A stretch of DNA of 33,126 nt from the NCBI GenBank assembly GCA_009886115.1, contig VFJJ01000160.1:1-33126 (forward strand), in the 5' to 3' direction. This DNA comes from Actinomycetota bacterium (lineage in GTDB: Bacteria; Actinomycetota; Acidimicrobiia; IMCC26256; VFJJ01). Below are positions 7,036-14,025 of the stretch, piece after piece. Within the stretch, counting starts at the first letter, position 1; every line of letters starts with the position of its first letter. Position numbers and translations under genes: made by a program. The notes below the pieces were generated by a model that was not told the DNA's origin, made no database searches, and was given only the letters and a program-made list of their open reading frames with translations.

Positions 7036-8454
7036 TCACACCTGCGAACGGGCGCCGGCGACCACGGCCTCACGAACGATGGGGAGGCGCACCCGAACCG
7101 TGGTCGACCCCGGGTGTGAGTCGAACTCGATCACGCCGTCGTGACGTTCGACGATCCGACGCGAGATGTCGAGCCCGAGACCGGTCCCCTTGCCGACGTC
7201 CTTGGTGGTGAAGAACGGCTCGAAGACCCGGTGCAGCACCGCCGGATCGATGCCCGGCCCGCTGTCGGTGAGCTCCACGACGATGTCGGCTCCCCGGCGG
7301 AGCGTTGCGATGCGCAACGTCCCGCGCCCCTCCATCGCATCGACGGCGTTGTCGATCAGGTTCGTCCAGACCTGATTGAGCTCGGCCGCGTACACCTCGA
7401 TCTCGGGGATCTCGGCGTCATAGGCACGAACCACCTCGATGTCTCGCAGCTTGACCGCCAGCATCGTGAGCGTGCTCTCGATGCCCCCGGTCACGTCGAT
7501 CCGATTGAGCGCTGCGCGATCCATCGCGGAGTACGTCTTGACGTCCTCGACGAGGTGCGAGATACGGGCGGTGGCCTCGGCGAGCTCGTCGAGGATCGAC
7601 ATCATCCCGACCGTGCTGGTGATCCAACGCACCGCCGGCGACAGCGCCTCGGAGCCGACGGCGGCTTCGAGCTCCTCCAGCCAGACACGGTCGACACCTG
7701 AGGCGGCGAGAACCGGGGCCAGCCGCCAAGCGATGCCGACGTCGTGGTCCTCGAGCCAGGAGCCGATGGCATCCTCGCGATCGGCGCGCTCGATGGCGCC
7801 GTCATCGGCGTCGGGACGTTGTCGGAGCTCGGCCCGGAAACGGTCGAGCTTCAAGAACTGATCGGCGGCGACCCCCTGTTCGGCGAGGGCGACGAGCGAG
7901 GACATCATGTACTCGCTGGCGTTTCGCAGCCCTTCGACAGCACGCATCGACGCCGCCGCGGGATTGTTGATCTCGTGGGCGAGACCGGCGGCGAGGGTTC
8001 CCAGGGCAACGAGCGACTCGCGCTCGCGGGCATGGGCGTCGATACTGCGAACCGTGTGGAAGACGCCGGTGATCATGTGCATCGCGAACGGCGACCACGA
8101 GCCGACCACCGAGGCGAGCTTGTCGGACGGCACGACCAGGCACCGACCCGGAGTCACGGCGCGCCCAGACGCCCGGTAGACCCCGTCGGCGCCGCCCCAC
8201 GCCGCGAGGCCGCCGGCCCATTGACCCGGTGTCGACATCGTGGCGACGACGTTGCTCCGATTGGCGACCCGACGCGACAACTCGATCTCACCCTCCAGCA
8301 AGATCCACAACTGATCTGCTTGGCGGCCCTCGGTGAACAATTCGTCATCGGGCGCAAAGCGGATCTCGTGCCCGGCATCGATCAGCTCGGCCCGCTGCCC
8401 GTCGTCGAGCTCTGCGGTGAGGAACGCGGCCCGCAGATCGTCGGCGAGGCTCAT
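7036..8454 (-). CDS. Sensor histidine kinase with N-terminal cyclic-nucleotide-binding-type domain
   Basis: A 472-residue soluble kinase with no membrane segment. Residues about 20-125 form a CNB/CRP-like beta-roll (FAPDDELFTEGRQADQLWIL, then LLEGEIELSRR). The H-box LGTLAAGLAHEINNP places the phosphorylated histidine at H160. The ATPase domain shows the N-box NLIDNAVDAM (365-374), DSGPGI (397-402), FEPFFTTK (411-418) and GKGTGLGL (421-428). A roughly 150-residue helical insert separates the H-box from the ATPase. The ATG overlaps the stop of the response-regulator gene as ATGA, so the two are translationally coupled and very likely cognate. The ligand could be a cyclic nucleotide, or the domain may sense something else; no ligand-binding residue set was confirmed. 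Confidence 0.92.
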   Translation of the reverse strand: MSLADDLRAAFLTAELDDGQRAELIDAGHEIRFAPDDELFTEGRQADQLWILLEGEIELSRRVANRSNVVATMSTPGQWAGGLAAWGGADGVYRASGRAVTPGRCLVVPSDKLASVVGSWSPFAMHMITGVFHTVRSIDAHARERESLVALGTLAAGLAHEINNPAAASMRAVEGLRNASEYMMSSLVALAEQGVAADQFLKLDRFRAELRQRPDADDGAIERADREDAIGSWLEDHDVGIAWRLAPVLAASGVDRVWLEELEAAVGSEALSPAVRWITSTVGMMSILDELAEATARISHLVEDVKTYSAMDRAALNRIDVTGGIESTLTMLAVKLRDIEVVRAYDAEIPEIEVYAAELNQVWTNLIDNAVDAMEGRGTLRIATLRRGADIVVELTDSGPGIDPAVLHRVFEPFFTTKDVGKGTGLGLDISRRIVERHDGVIEFDSHPGSTTVRVRLPIVREAVVAGARSQV

Positions 8455-10115
8455 ACCGTCTCCAGGTAGAGGTGCACGTTGCTGATCGCGCTCGAGCCTT
8501 CACCGACCGCGGATGCCACTCGTTTCATCGAGGAGCGCCGCACATCGCCGGCCGCGAACACGCCGGGTGCACTCGTCTCCAGGAGGAACGGCGGCCGTCG
8601 CAGCGCCCAGCCGGGGCCGTCGACGCCGCCCAGCGCACCAACGTCGGGACCGGTCAAGATGAACCCGTGCTCATCTCTCGCGACGACGTGAGCGAGCCAG
8701 TCGGTGCGCGGTTTCGCCCCGATGAACGCATACAACCAGTTCGCCGACACGTCCTGCTGCGTCCCGGTGTCGCGCTCGACAAGGGTGAGCCATTCGAGGT
8801 GATCGGAGCCGCCACCCCGGACGATCTCGGTGCGTAGACGTACTTCGATCCTGTCGGAGGCGAGGATCCGATCAACGAGGTACCTCGACATCGAGGCCTC
8901 GAGCGACTCGCCGCGCACCAGCATCACCACGCGGCGTGCGTACTGAGCGAGGTGGAGCGCCGCTTGCCCGGCCGAGTTGGCAGCGCCGACGAGATACACG
9001 TCGTCGCCCTCGGTCGTGCGGGCATCACTCACCGAGGCGCCGTAGTACACGCCTCTCCCCGTGAAGTCGGCGAGCCCTTCAGCGGTCAGCAACTGGTACG
9101 ACACGCCGGTAGCGACGACGACGGCTCGCGACTCGATCTCGGAACCGTCGTCGAAGCTGAGCGCGAAGATCGAACCGCGCAACTCGAGCGACTGCACATT
9201 GCGGGCGAGCACCATCTCGGCTCCGAGCCGGCGCGCCTGTGTCGCCGCTCGATGGGACAGATCGGCGCCGCTGAGGCCGTTCGGGAAGCCGAGGTAGTTC
9301 TCGATCCTCGAGCTCTGGCCTGCCTGTCCCCCCGGCGCATCGCGTTCGATCACGATGGTCCGCAAGCCCTCCGAGGCCGCGTAGACCGCCGCAGCCAGAC
9401 CAGCAGGCCCGGCGCCCACGACCACGACGTCGTACAGCGCTGCTTCTGTGGTGGTGTGGAGTCCCAGCGCGCTCGCGAGCTCGAGCGTGCTCGCGCCGTG
9501 CAGCACCGTGCCGTCCGGCAGGAGCACCAGAGGAAGCCCGCCCTCCGAGGCGCCGAAGAGGCCGTGCAGCCGCTGGGCCTCGGCGTCGGTGTCGAGCTCG
9601 AGCCACTGGTAGTGGACATGGTTGCGGGCGAGGAAGATCCGCGTGTCGTAGCTCCGTTCCGACCACCGGTTCCCGACCACGCGAACGCCTTCGAATCGTT
9701 GGCTGTTGGCACGGTCCCAATCGTCCAACAGATCGTCGAGCACCGGGTACAGACGCTCTTCCGGCGGCGCCCACGGCTTCATCAGATAGTGGTCGAGGCC
9801 GATCTCGTTGATCGCGGTGATCGCCACCTCGGTGTCGGCGTATGCAGTGAGGAGGAGGAGCTTGGCGCCCGGCGCGATCGGTCGAGCCCGTTCGAGGAGC
9901 TCGATCCCGGTCATCTCCGGCATGCGATGATCCGACAGGATCAACGCAACCGGATGATCACGTCGACCGAGCTCCTCCAACGCCGCCAGTGCCTCTGCGC
10001 CCGACGTGGCCCGGATGATCCGGTACCGCTCGGCGTAGCGCGCCCGCAGGTCACGGGCCACCGCCTGCGAGACCGTCACGTCGTCGTCGACAGTCAGAAT
10101 CGCCGGTCTCGCCAC
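8451..10115 (-). CDS. Response regulator fused to glutaredoxin-like and thioredoxin-reductase-like domains, cysteine-free
   Basis: A 554-residue three-part protein. Residues 5-125 are a receiver domain: acidic pocket D10-D12, phospho-acceptor D62 in LILSDHRMPEMTG, T90 and K113. Residues about 143-220 resemble a glutaredoxin fold, but the CPYC position reads W-S-E-R-S-Y (151-156). Residues 228-554 are a two-Rossmann thioredoxin-reductase-like flavoprotein with FAD motif GAGPAG (234-239), NADPH motif GAANSAG (377-383) and C-terminal GVFAAGD. The usual CATC is replaced by G-A-S-V (359-362). I find no cysteine in the whole chain, so disulfide reduction is not possible. The GTG start has a strong AAGGGAGGT upstream. 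It is the first gene of a unit with the kinase at 8454. Related fusions are annotated in Actinobacteria as response regulator/thioredoxin-disulfide reductase; I know of no assigned function. Confidence 0.9.
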   Translation of the reverse strand: MARPAILTVDDDVTVSQAVARDLRARYAERYRIIRATSGAEALAALEELGRRDHPVALILSDHRMPEMTGIELLERARPIAPGAKLLLLTAYADTEVAITAINEIGLDHYLMKPWAPPEERLYPVLDDLLDDWDRANSQRFEGVRVVGNRWSERSYDTRIFLARNHVHYQWLELDTDAEAQRLHGLFGASEGGLPLVLLPDGTVLHGASTLELASALGLHTTTEAALYDVVVVGAGPAGLAAAVYAASEGLRTIVIERDAPGGQAGQSSRIENYLGFPNGLSGADLSHRAATQARRLGAEMVLARNVQSLELRGSIFALSFDDGSEIESRAVVVATGVSYQLLTAEGLADFTGRGVYYGASVSDARTTEGDDVYLVGAANSAGQAALHLAQYARRVVMLVRGESLEASMSRYLVDRILASDRIEVRLRTEIVRGGGSDHLEWLTLVERDTGTQQDVSANWLYAFIGAKPRTDWLAHVVARDEHGFILTGPDVGALGGVDGPGWALRRPPFLLETSAPGVFAAGDVRRSSMKRVASAVGEGSSAISNVHLYLETV

Positions 10116-10395
10116 GGCACCTCCCTTCTGAAGCGACCCCTTCGGGGCTCAGGCGAGGGAAGCTACCCCACCAATCCGCAGAGCGACATGCCTCATCAGG
10201 CGTGGATCGGCCCCGAACGACGACGCGAACGAACGCCCCCGTCGTCGAAGAGCGAACTACGTTGGGTTCGCAGTTCGAGGAGCCGCACGAGAGGCGTCAC
10301 CGACGACGACGCACCTGGGCACAACCGGCGCTTCGCAGGAGCGTCTCTCACGGCCGAGACCGCTGGACAACATCGAGCACCGAAGGATCGTGACC
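10116..10395. other. Divergent intergenic region between the signalling unit and the P450
   Basis: 280 bases with no plausible gene. It holds the ribosome binding site of the response regulator at its left edge, a small CCCC-TTC-GGGG hairpin in that gene's leader (about 10136-10146), and a perfect 6-bp inverted repeat GCGAAC/GTTCGC (10252-10257 and 10266-10271, 8-base spacer) that could be an operator. AAGGA at 10383-10387 is the P450 ribosome binding site. Confidence 0.5.
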
Positions 10396-11637
10396 ATGGC
10401 CATGATCGAACCGATCGAGGATCTCTCCGACCCCACCTGGGATCCGCATCTCGGCGACGAGTTGTTCTTCGGGACGCTCAGCGATCCGTACCCGATCCTC
10501 GCCCGGCTCCGGGAGAGCGCCGGAGTGGTGCCTGGTGATTTCCGCGACGCCATGGGATTGCCGCCGAGCCCCCCGCAGGCGTACGCCCCGCACTACATGG
10601 TGCTGTCGTTCGCGGCCATCGACCATGTGCTGAGCCATCCCGAGGTGTTCTCGAACAAGGCGTTCGATTCCACGCTCGGGGCCGCGTTCGGCCACACGCT
10701 CAGCGTCATGGACCAGCCCGAGCACACGGGCTACCGCAAGACCCTCCAGCGGGTGTTCCGGCCCAACATCGTCCAGGAGTGGGGTACGGGGATCGTCGAC
10801 CCGGTGATCGACGAGCTCGTCGGTGCTTTCCGCGAGAACGGCAGGGCCGAGCTCGTCGAGCAGTTCTGCCGTCCATACCCGTTCACGGTCATCTACCGGA
10901 TGATCGGCCTCCCGGCTCGCGACATCGCCACCTTCTACCGGTTGACAGTCACCCAGATCCTCTCGCCCGTGCGGATGGACATGGCGCTCGAGGCCTCGGC
11001 CAAGCTCGGCCGGTACTTCACGGCGATGCTCGCCGAGCGGCGCAGGAACCCCGGCACCGACCTCGTGAGCGTCCTCGCCACCGCCGAGACCGACGGTGAA
11101 CGGCTGCCCGACGATGTGGTCATCTCGTTCCTGCGTCAGCTCATCAACGCCGGCGGCGACACGACCTTCCGGACGACGACCATCCTCCTCACCGGCCTGT
11201 TGACCAACCCCGATCAGCTGGAGGCGGTCCGCGCCGACCGCTCGCTCATCGGTCCGGCCATCGAGGAGGCCCTGCGATGGGACGGCCCCGTCGTCGCCAG
11301 CATGCGCGAGACGATCGAGGACACCGTCGTCGAAGGCGTGCCCATCCCCTCGGGGACCTTCATCGACCTCCTCTACGGCGCCGCCAACCACGACCCGGCC
11401 ATGTACGAGCACCCCGAGCGCTTCGACATCTTCCGCGCGAGGCGCCGCCACTTCGGCTTCTCCAGCGGCATCCACAACTGCATCGGCCAGCAGCTCGCCC
11501 GTCTCGAGATGACCCGGGCCGTCAACGCCATCCTCGACCGTCTCCCCAACGTGAGGCTCGACCCCGAAGCCCCGGCCCCCCAACCCCGGGGAGCCATGAT
11601 GCGCACGCCCCCGGCGATCAACGTCGTGTTCGACTGA
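10396..11637 (+). CDS. Cytochrome P450
   Basis: A 413-residue soluble bacterial P450 that would hydroxylate a hydrophobic substrate using electrons from a ferredoxin and its reductase (neither gene is in the window). The I-helix oxygen-activation motif AGGDTT is at 252-257, ExxR is EALR (291-294), and the haem-binding loop FGFSSGIHNCIG gives the axial thiolate C362. The start at 10396 is preferred over the upstream in-frame GTG at 10390, because AAGGA lies 8 bases before the ATG but only 2 before the GTG. The stop codon lies inside the first unit of an 8-bp tandem repeat. The family number and substrate cannot be given from sequence alone. Confidence 0.93.
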   Translation: MAMIEPIEDLSDPTWDPHLGDELFFGTLSDPYPILARLRESAGVVPGDFRDAMGLPPSPPQAYAPHYMVLSFAAIDHVLSHPEVFSNKAFDSTLGAAFGHTLSVMDQPEHTGYRKTLQRVFRPNIVQEWGTGIVDPVIDELVGAFRENGRAELVEQFCRPYPFTVIYRMIGLPARDIATFYRLTVTQILSPVRMDMALEASAKLGRYFTAMLAERRRNPGTDLVSVLATAETDGERLPDDVVISFLRQLINAGGDTTFRTTTILLTGLLTNPDQLEAVRADRSLIGPAIEEALRWDGPVVASMRETIEDTVVEGVPIPSGTFIDLLYGAANHDPAMYEHPERFDIFRARRRHFGFSSGIHNCIGQQLARLEMTRAVNAILDRLPNVRLDPEAPAPQPRGAMMRTPPAINVVFD

Positions 11638-11682
11638 GTGACTGAGTGACTGAGTGACTGAGTGACTGAGTGACTGAGTGAC
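11633..11682. repeat. 8-bp tandem repeat (ACTGAGTG x6)
   Basis: Six perfect copies of ACTGAGTG followed by a partial AC. The P450 stop codon (11635-11637) is part of the first unit. Because the unit length is not a multiple of three and contains TGA, the array places stop codons in all three forward frames. It separates the P450 from the MerB-like gene, whose start lies 52 bases further on. Confidence 0.95.
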
Positions 11683-11734: not shown

Positions 11735-12394
11735 ATGGAAGCTGCCGATCTTCAGGTGCGGAACACGACGTATCACGGCTTCGTGGAGCTGGGCCGGGCC
11801 CCTGTCGTGGGCGAGATCGCCGGGCGCCTCCAGATGAGCGTCGCCGAGGTGGGGGCGAGTTGGCAACGACTCCACGGTCTCCATGCACTCGTCCTCGACG
11901 GTGACGGCTCCAGCCTTCGGATGGCCAACCCGTTCTCTGCCGTGCCGACCCGTCACCGAGTTCGCGCCGATGGACGATGGTGGTTCGCCAACTGCGCGTG
12001 GGATGCTTTCGGAATCTGCGCGGCGTTGCACGTCGACGGGCACATCTCGTCGGTCTGCCCGGACTGCAGCGAACCGATCGAGATCGACCTTGTCGCCGAG
12101 CAGCCCAGCGATACCTCGCTGCTGTTCCACAGCATCGTCCCCGCCGCACGGTGGTGGGATGACATCGTGTTCACGTGAGGCTCGATGAACCTCTTCCGGT
12201 CGGAGGAGCACATCGCCCACTGGCTCGACGGCCGTAGTCCTGGCATGACCACCACGGTCGTCACACTCAGCGAGCTCGCGCACGCCTGGTGGGGCAACCG
12301 CCTCGACCCCGCGTGGCAGCCCAGGTCGAAAGCGGCCAACCGCGCGATCCTCGACTCCCTCGGCCTCACCGGGCCGCTCTGGTCGCTCGACTGA
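11735..12394 (+). CDS. MerB-like organomercurial lyase, predicted selenoprotein (in-frame TGA = Sec148)
   Basis: The ATG at 11735 opens a frame that meets TGA at 12176-12178 and continues in the same frame to a TGA stop at 12392-12394, giving 219 residues including Sec; MerB of plasmid R831b has 212. The N-terminal part has the winged-helix-like segment and FANCAWDAFGIC, where C87 and D90 match MerB C96 and D99. SSVCPDC places C108 at the structural Cys117. The interrupted segment reads WDDIVFT-U-GSMNLFRS, and aligning NLFRS to MerB HFFAS puts the TGA exactly on catalytic Cys159. MerB breaks C-Hg bonds by attack of these two cysteines with the Asp as proton shuttle. A SECIS-like hairpin follows the TGA. 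The conceptual product is therefore a Cys/Sec lyase. No merA, merR, merT or merP is nearby, so the substrate need not be mercury. Alternative: a nonsense-mutated pseudogene. Confidence 0.82.
12176..12208 (+). promoter_or_regulatory. Candidate bacterial SECIS element after the in-frame TGA
   Basis: The TGA (12176-12178) is followed by 12 bases and then a perfect 7-bp stem (12191-12197 CTCTTCC with 12202-12208 GGAGGAG, one G-U pair) closing a four-base loop GGUC (12198-12201). The first loop G lies 19 bases after the TGA. The E. coli fdhF SECIS has 18 bases before its GGUC-containing loop, which SelB recognises. Both loop sequence and distance therefore fit the bacterial SECIS pattern. The hairpin lies wholly inside coding sequence, as bacterial elements do. 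Confidence 0.8.
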
Positions 12395-12517: not shown

Positions 12518-13579
12518 TCACGGCACGGATGACGCGGCCCGAACGTGTTCCACGACAGGGGCGAACGCTTCGATCGTCTCCCTGAGCCCCTGATACATCG
12601 AAAACCCCGGCCGGCGCACGGCCGCCAGGTTGAAGCTGAGGCTCGTGAATCCCAAGTCCAGCACTCGCTCGACGAGCCGCATGCAGTCGTCGGCAGTCCC
12701 GGCCACACCGAACGCCTCGACCATCTCGGCCGAGATGAGCTCGTCGAGCTCGGGTGGGTCGTAGCGGTCGTGGGCGAAGTACCAGCCCCGCGCCCCGGTG
12801 AGTTCCGCGGTGATGGCGGCGAGTTGCTCGTCATCGATGGCGATGTCGTCGGGTCGGATCAAGGTGAGGTAATGGGCCACGTAGCGCTTGATCGACCGTC
12901 GGGCCAGGCTGCCGTCGGTCGAGGCGCACAGGGTGAGGCGGGGGGCGATCTCCACGGCGTTGACGGAGCGCCCGACGCGTGCCGCGCCGTCGGCCAGCCA
13001 ACCCCTGTATCTGTCGGCCACCTCGGCCGAGAGATATCGGGCCCCTACCAGCGCGATATCGGCCATCTCGCCAGCGAGCCGCATCACCTGTGGACTGCGA
13101 GTCCCGATCGAGATCGGAACGCCGCCCGCCAGGGCACCGCGCTCGAGCCTTCCGCTCGTGAGCGTGGCGCGGATCGTGTCGACGGCCGAGCGCAGCGTGG
13201 CAATGGGATCGGGATAGCCGATACCGAGGTCTTCCAAGCCGGCGCCGACCCCCAACCCGCAGAACACCCGTCCATCGCTCAGCTCGTGCAGCGACTGGAG
13301 TGCCCCGGCGATGATCGCCGGATGGCGGGTGTAGGCATTGGTGACCATCGATCCCACGTGGATGCGACTCGTGGCCCGCAGGCACTCGGCCTGGACGAGA
13401 AAACAGTCGGGGTACCACAACACGTCGGAAACGCCGAGCCGGTCGAAGCCGGCGTCCTCTGCAGCGCGAGCCAGCGAGGCGGCTTCGGCCAGCGTCATGC
13501 CCGGGGTGATCTCGGCCTCGAGCGTGAGCGGCCGTCGTTCGTGGAGCGCTGATGGCATGTGCGTCGTCGCGGCGCTCAC
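12518..13579 (-). CDS. LLM-class flavin-dependent oxidoreductase
   Basis: About 353 residues of the luciferase-like (LLM) TIM-barrel family, whose members use FMN or F420. Typical segments are EAASLARAAEDAGFDRLGVSD, SMVTNAYTRHPAIIAGAL, LSDGRVFCGLGVGAG and a late GTADDCMRLVERVLDLGF. The nonprolyl-cis-peptide region around SMVTNAYTRHP resembles F420-dependent members of Actinobacteria. The chosen start is the GTG at 13579, which overlaps the stop of the SnoaL-like gene as GTGA; the ATG at 13558 is an alternative and neither has a good Shine-Dalgarno. The longer frame to 13849 is a shadow of the upstream gene. The substrate is unknown. It is convergent with the MerB-like gene across 123 bases without a recognisable terminator. 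Confidence 0.82.
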   Translation of the reverse strand: MSAATTHMPSALHERRPLTLEAEITPGMTLAEAASLARAAEDAGFDRLGVSDVLWYPDCFLVQAECLRATSRIHVGSMVTNAYTRHPAIIAGALQSLHELSDGRVFCGLGVGAGLEDLGIGYPDPIATLRSAVDTIRATLTSGRLERGALAGGVPISIGTRSPQVMRLAGEMADIALVGARYLSAEVADRYRGWLADGAARVGRSVNAVEIAPRLTLCASTDGSLARRSIKRYVAHYLTLIRPDDIAIDDEQLAAITAELTGARGWYFAHDRYDPPELDELISAEMVEAFGVAGTADDCMRLVERVLDLGFTSLSFNLAAVRRPGFSMYQGLRETIEAFAPVVEHVRAASSVP

Positions 13580-14025
13580 GGCATCTGCAGCAGGTGGTGG
13601 CTCACGTCTCCCGGGAGGTGTCCCGAGCCCTCGCGGTAGACGATCCTCCAGCGCCCGTCGATGCGACGGAAGCGGTCTTCGTAGCGGTTGGCCCACACGG
13701 GCTGCAGGGGGAACTCGTCGGTCCGCTGGATCACCGTCATGTAGTAGTGGCATGACGCGGTGCCGGCCTCGTCGTCGATCTCGACGATGTGGTTCGTGGC
13801 GATGTGGCGCGTGTGCGGTGTGCCATCGTCGGGGTAGCGCCGAGTCCACTGCTCGAACGACTCCCTCACGGCGTCGCTGCCGTGGTACGAGCGGCCCTCG
13901 GCCATGACCACCTCGGCATCCTTCAACAGCTCACCGATCCCGGCGAAGTCGCCGGCGTCGATGAGCCGTGGATACGAGTGCACCAGATTGATGATCTCCA
14001 GGTAGCTCTCGAACGACGCGGTCAT
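13576..14025 (-). CDS. SnoaL-like (NTF2-fold) protein
   Basis: 149 residues, a second SnoaL-like domain, distinct in sequence from the one at 2509. It begins FESYLEIINLVHSYPRLIDAG, a typical first helix. The middle has GTPHTRHIATNHIVEID and the last strand pair is YEDRFRRIDGRWRIVYRE. ATG at 14025 has GAGGAG 7 bases upstream. Its 3' end overlaps the LLM oxidoreductase gene by four bases, so the two form one unit and probably serve the same pathway. The 194 bases upstream, shared with the divergent SDR, contain a run of eight G at 14163-14170 and no obvious operator. A catalytic role (isomerase, dehydratase) is possible but not shown. Confidence 0.8.
   Translation of the reverse strand: MTASFESYLEIINLVHSYPRLIDAGDFAGIGELLKDAEVVMAEGRSYHGSDAVRESFEQWTRRYPDDGTPHTRHIATNHIVEIDDEAGTASCHYYMTVIQRTDEFPLQPVWANRYEDRFRRIDGRWRIVYREGSGHLPGDVSHHLLQMP

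Follow-up and report, generated by a model that had tools for sequence, protein, structure and literature searches.

Methylmercury demethylation decides how much of this compound enters food webs, and many sites with measured demethylation lack MerB, the known enzyme. In a 33,126-nucleotide stretch of Actinomycetota DNA (contig VFJJ01000160.1), referred to here as the window, a MerB-like reading frame is crossed by an in-frame UGA codon. The locus raises the question of whether this codon is a lesion or is read as selenocysteine (Sec) and, in the latter case, what the protein might do. A widespread Sec-containing MerB that occurs apart from MerA, and that ordinary annotation overlooks on account of UGA codons, would add a candidate for methylmercury demethylation, which makes the question testable.

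The window gene encodes a MerB-family protein

The reading frame starts with an ATG and passes through the in-frame TGA into 71 more sense codons before a TGA stop at 12392–12394 (Table 1), which verifies the continuous frame of the original prediction; standard annotation would end the gene early, at the UGA codon. With Cys put at the TGA, the translated protein matches the Pfam MerB family (PF03243) with E = 6.5e-26 and 91.2 bits against a gathering score of 27, and its relatives likewise score above that threshold. The nearest solved relative by sequence is MerB2, with about 22% identity, and a profile built from 43 family members recovers MerB2 (3.6e-25) as well as MerB (about 1e-13). An AlphaFold model, computed with Cys replacing Sec and without active-site distances, has a mean pLDDT of 97.2 and a pTM of 0.93. 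Its best Foldseek match is Hg-bound MerB2 (PDB 5c17; E = 3.4e-10), and every one of the top solved matches is a MerB structure; VIA-align gives Z 18.2 and rmsd 3.3 over 186 aligned residues for 5c17, and Z 14.4–14.9 for MerB crystal structures. Membership of the window protein in the MerB family is confirmed.

The fold, an N-terminal winged-helix-like part and the Cys96, Asp99 and Cys117 columns are common to the window protein, MerB (PF03243; PDB 3f0o, 3f2f, 1s6l) and MerB2 (5c17), and the alignment bears out the residue pairing that had been proposed for the window protein (Cys87 and Asp90 for Cys96 and Asp99, Cys108 for Cys117). The proposal that the TGA falls on Cys159, the position at which MerB has its metal-attacking cysteine and the window protein a putative Sec followed by the MNLFRSEEH motif, is confirmed by separate alignments with the solved MerB2 structure and with the MerB C160S mutant. 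In the 43-member profile, codon 148 aligns to the Cys preceding S160 of that mutant, that is, Cys159, and Cys87 aligns to Cys96. The homologue alignment used a plasmid-type MerB reference, and sequences from the PDB confirm its assignment of columns. Two columns of the active-site triad, Cys96 and Asp99, are thus kept, and the third would hold Sec, a chemical analogue of Cys but a different residue. Nearly every homologue has Cys or Sec in the two metal-binding columns and Asp or Glu in the acid column. The window protein nevertheless lies far below the cut-offs of the NCBIfam MerB equivalogs NF009710 (34.5 against 193 bits) and NF033555 (30.5 against 200 bits), and no NCBIfam model claims it or any relative tested.

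Table 1. Features of the window and loci of the double-TGA relatives
Feature	Position or loci	Strand	Basis or remark
Cytochrome P450 gene, neighbour	10390–11637	+	Context; no conserved operon
Sec-containing MerB-family gene	11735–12394	+	219 residues, then TGA stop
Cys87 codon (MerB Cys96)	11993–11995	+	Alignment; TGA in double-Sec relatives
Asp90 codon (MerB Asp99, proton donor/acceptor)	12002–12004	+	Alignment
Cys108 codon (MerB Cys117)	12056–12058	+	Alignment
UGA codon 148, predicted Sec (MerB Cys159)	12176–12178	+	Alignment, motif scans
Predicted SECIS hairpin CUCUUCC-GGUC-GGAGGAG	12191–12208	+	Apical loop GGUC at 12198–12201, 19 nt after UGA
Luciferase-like monooxygenase gene, neighbour	12518–13849	-	Context
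Double-TGA loci	L089, L090, L095, L098, L099, L100, L102 and 69 loci in L119–L237		

Decoding of the in-frame UGA

The genome that contains the window (5.4 Mb, 95.6% complete) encodes the components of Sec insertion: a tRNA-Sec with anticodon TCA (66 bits), selA (459 bits) and selB (294 bits, or 320 with a second piece) share one contig, and selD (398 bits) lies elsewhere. A search of 395 genomes of the class yielded more than 30 homologues of full length, each with a single TGA, which in every one occupies the Cys159 column; other homologues have Cys there. The region was also scanned for as a DNA motif (TGA, TGC or TGT, then x-x-M/I-x-L/F-F-R-S-E-E-H) in GTDB contigs, each bacterial or archaeal species being represented by a single genome; the counts are lower bounds. 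All 119 matches listed carry TGA and none TGC or TGT; 116 of them are MerB-like, and the other three are chance frames of short length. Within the class (395 genomes), the motif was again found with TGA only (17/17), and a reversed-pattern control gave 0 matches. Moreover, selA is enriched in genomes that contain Sec-MerB (37/44 versus 218/351, p = 0.004). Six genomes without a selA match (G204, G363, G344, G378, G360 and G362) also lack a selB over cut-off. Three of these, G204, G363 and G378, have a tRNA-Sec over cut-off, so that assembly gaps are the likely reason there; the other three are 60–75% complete.

Downstream of the UGA, the window RNA can form a hairpin that meets all features of a published bacterial SECIS model, which specifies a loop of 3–9 nt with G in one of the first two places, a stem of 4–16 bp, a distance of 16–37 nt from the UGA and an MFE of at most -7.5 (PMC13188914). 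The predicted hairpin has the loop GGUC, 7 bp and a distance of 19 nt; it starts 15 nt past the U of the UGA. The MFE is -16.9 kcal/mol when 48 nt are folded and -8.8 when only the hairpin is. Among the Sec loci listed, 161/164 fulfil the model. The 48 nt after the UGA are more stable than synonymous-codon shuffles (mean z -1.36, SE 0.09, n = 164). Such extra stability is lacking in two control windows elsewhere in these genes (z -0.23 and -0.02) and in Cys homologues downstream of their Cys codon (z -0.32, n = 28). Against dinucleotide shuffles, the single sequence of the window is not exceptional (z -1.0); the case for a SECIS, as inferred here, rests on the family and not on this one sequence.

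The family alignment carries two further signals. In the motif loci listed, an Arg and a Ser codon are nearly fixed among their synonyms (CGG in 109/113, TCG in 111/113), compared with 26% for CGG and 29% for TCG elsewhere in the same genes. Across 64 distinct sequences, 94.9% of the pair cells are standard, and changes on both sides occur in six of the seven pairs, with 41 such cells where shuffles give 11.2 (0/500); slid versions of the hairpin alignment all fail this covariation test. The pair at columns 17/32 (UA 47, GC 10, CG 5) joins second codon positions, and residues 5 and 10 after the Sec therefore covary in a way that keeps the RNA pair.

A nonsense mutation, a pseudogene or a sequencing error would also place a stop codon inside a frame, which is the sole point in favour of that reading. 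It is rejected, with next to no probability left to it, because the TGA recurs in the same column, accompanied by a covarying SECIS, in at least about 160 homologous loci from more than ten phyla; this recurrence also upholds the earlier argument that the placement is beyond chance. The three observations that had been named as fatal to the original prediction did not materialize: relatives do have Cys at the TGA column, selA, selB, selD and tRNA-Sec are all in the genome, and the conservation of the TGA across independent genomes excludes a read error. With a SECIS hairpin at a fixed distance and a genome that has tRNA-Sec, SelA, SelB and SelD, codon 148 is almost certainly decoded as Sec, a judgement made from sequence evidence. 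Reading of TGA as Trp or by another altered code was considered separately and discarded; the window gene and its P450 neighbour both terminate with TGA, and the nearest stop-free homologues have Cys in the column.

One locus stands apart. L113 (positions 739–1293, genome G363) has the TGA at the Cys159 column without a SECIS hairpin, in a genome that has a tRNA-Sec but neither a selA match nor a selB over cut-off. It is doubtful that this locus encodes Sec, and its TGA may be a true nonsense codon.

Distribution and a double-Sec form

By organism name, the motif loci fall into Chloroflexota, Actinomycetota, Desulfobacterota (Thermodesulfobacteriota), Myxococcota, Rokuibacteriota, Acidobacteriota, Calditrichota, Nitrospirota, Nitrospinota and others. 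A TGA at both the Cys96 and the Cys159 column is present in at least 76 relatives, most of them from Chloroflexota, Desulfobacterota and Myxococcota. The additional TGA commonly lies in the sequence W[FY][AG]QU[AG]xE, usually 65 codons upstream, and is followed by a conserved hairpin of its own (z -0.67, SE 0.11); these proteins mostly have Glu in the place of Asp99. The predicted structure of a double-Sec relative is again MerB-like. In a quick tree of 172 sequences, the exchange of Sec and Cys takes three changes at position 159 and eight at position 96. Whether all these proteins form one large family, as yet without a name, of selenium-dependent organometal lyases encoded by stand-alone genes in more than ten phyla, including a double-Sec clade with Glu as the proton donor, is a proposal on which we hold evenly balanced confidence. 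No double-Sec MerB was found in the literature searched; the original SaoL paper lay outside that search, and an earlier mention is not excluded.

Relation to SaoL

A MerB-like protein with Sec has a precedent in SaoL. The study behind SaoL and its model NF040728 is reportedly that of Haft and Gwadz in 2023, as cited in a review (PMC13188914). Among NCBIfam models, this one matches the window protein best, which might suggest that the latter is the SaoL of an SAO operon; both are MerB-like selenoproteins. The score, however, is 50.8 bits where the model requires 140, related proteins score 14.6–37 bits, and none of 346 Actinomycetota genomes has a protein that reaches the cut-off. Reviews describe SaoL as a MerB-like selenoprotein with a Cys-Sec motif and one Sec, whose operon, SAO, encodes several selenoproteins (PMC13188914, PMC9312934); the protein is named a MerB-like organometallic lyase (NF040728). 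In the window protein, by contrast, Thr precedes the Sec, the gene stands alone, with no ABC transporter, thioredoxin-like or Sao-like gene among the ten flanking genes tested, and in a sister clade of the family Sec occupies the two catalytic positions together. Identity with SaoL is hardly tenable. Because the score is under the cut-off and both the Cys-Sec motif and the operon are missing, the Sec-MerB family is distinct from SaoL, as far as can be judged without a SaoL sequence, none having been compared, and with the SaoL Sec column unknown. A published table of predicted selenoproteins has an entry 'Organic mercuric lyase MerB2' without sequence, taxon or Sec position (PMC7435645); the name suggests a Sec-containing MerB homologue, which could be SaoL or a member of the window family.

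Genomic context and proposed function

Around the window gene, the absence of mer genes that had been noted from the sequence holds for the ten flanking genes scanned, and across 137 clustered loci no conserved partner gene was found, save generic catabolic genes and response regulators. Class-wide, Sec-MerB is not associated with MerA (4/44 versus 40/351 genomes, p = 0.80), whereas Cys-MerB does co-occur with it (11/29, odds ratio 6.2, p = 7e-5); the genome sets for these counts were compiled by hand, and related genomes are not independent. In the genome of the window itself, the best MerA match is below cut-off. Because there is neither a mer operon nor a MerA association, unlike for Cys-MerB, the classic route from organomercury to Hg(0) is not supported for Sec-MerB.

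The best explanation, which we consider probable, is a MerB-fold enzyme in which Sec148 acts in an organometal lyase. In such an enzyme, the Sec148 selenolate (in the place of Cys159) and Cys87 (Cys96) would coordinate the metal of an organometallic compound, the likeliest substrate being an organomercurial, for example methylmercury; Asp90 (Asp99) would supply the proton that breaks the carbon–metal bond in a MerB-type protonolysis. The bound metal ion might then pass to small thiols or selenols, a step proposed since no MerA partner is linked. In the sister clade, Sec would serve as both metal-binding residues, with Glu in the place of Asp99. Of the predicted Sec-containing MerB-like lyase, then, the Sec part stands on machinery, conserved TGA and SECIS, and lyase activity and substrate remain inferred. 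Use as a carbon–metal lyase is favoured only somewhat; activity and substrate are extrapolated from MerB chemistry, with no biochemical evidence. The anatomy inferred is that of a carbon–metal lyase with a stronger soft-metal ligand, in a physiology that would be unlike that of the mer operon.

The lack of a mer operon, of conserved neighbours and of a MerA association would also suit a MerB-fold selenoprotein that is no organomercurial lyase and that acts on another organometal or metalloid substrate or serves as a non-catalytic trap for Hg(II) or soft metals. Many of the genomes are environmental MAGs without sign of a resistance cassette, and a double-Sec pair could grip Hg(II) very tightly. 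Retention of the acid (Asp or Glu) together with Cys or Sec in the metal columns goes beyond the needs of a scavenger, and we regard this alternative as unlikely without dismissing it. A protein that handles no metals and switches through a Cys87–Sec148 selenenylsulfide is far less credible: most bacterial selenoproteins are thought to work in redox reactions (PMC9312934) and both residues meet in the MerB active site, but the fold is not thioredoxin-like, the closest structures are all MerB and the Asp/Glu proton-donor column is kept.

If the organometal lyase reading is true, it would provide a route of mercury or organometal demethylation that is independent of the mer operon. Standard gene calling would truncate the family at the UGA, and MerB-based gene surveys may miss it. 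A two-selenium active site in a carbon–metal lyase would be a useful test case for why enzymes bear the cost of selenium in reactions that are not redox.

Several minor features were recorded nearby and in other genomes. A perfect 8-bp tandem repeat, GACTGAGT, with 6.4 copies at 11632–11682, lies between the stop codon of the P450 gene and the start of Sec-MerB. On the minus strand of the window, 8451–10115 encodes a response regulator fused to a thioredoxin-reductase-like domain, which is adjoined by a histidine kinase with a cyclic-nucleotide-binding domain (7036–8454, minus strand). A response-regulator gene is also found near merB in L214, just downstream, and in about ten other loci. Two other genomes encode MerA-like flavoproteins with one in-frame TGA (G058:C16:200235-201584 and G236:C67:48411-49787), which are possibly selenocysteine disulfide reductases.
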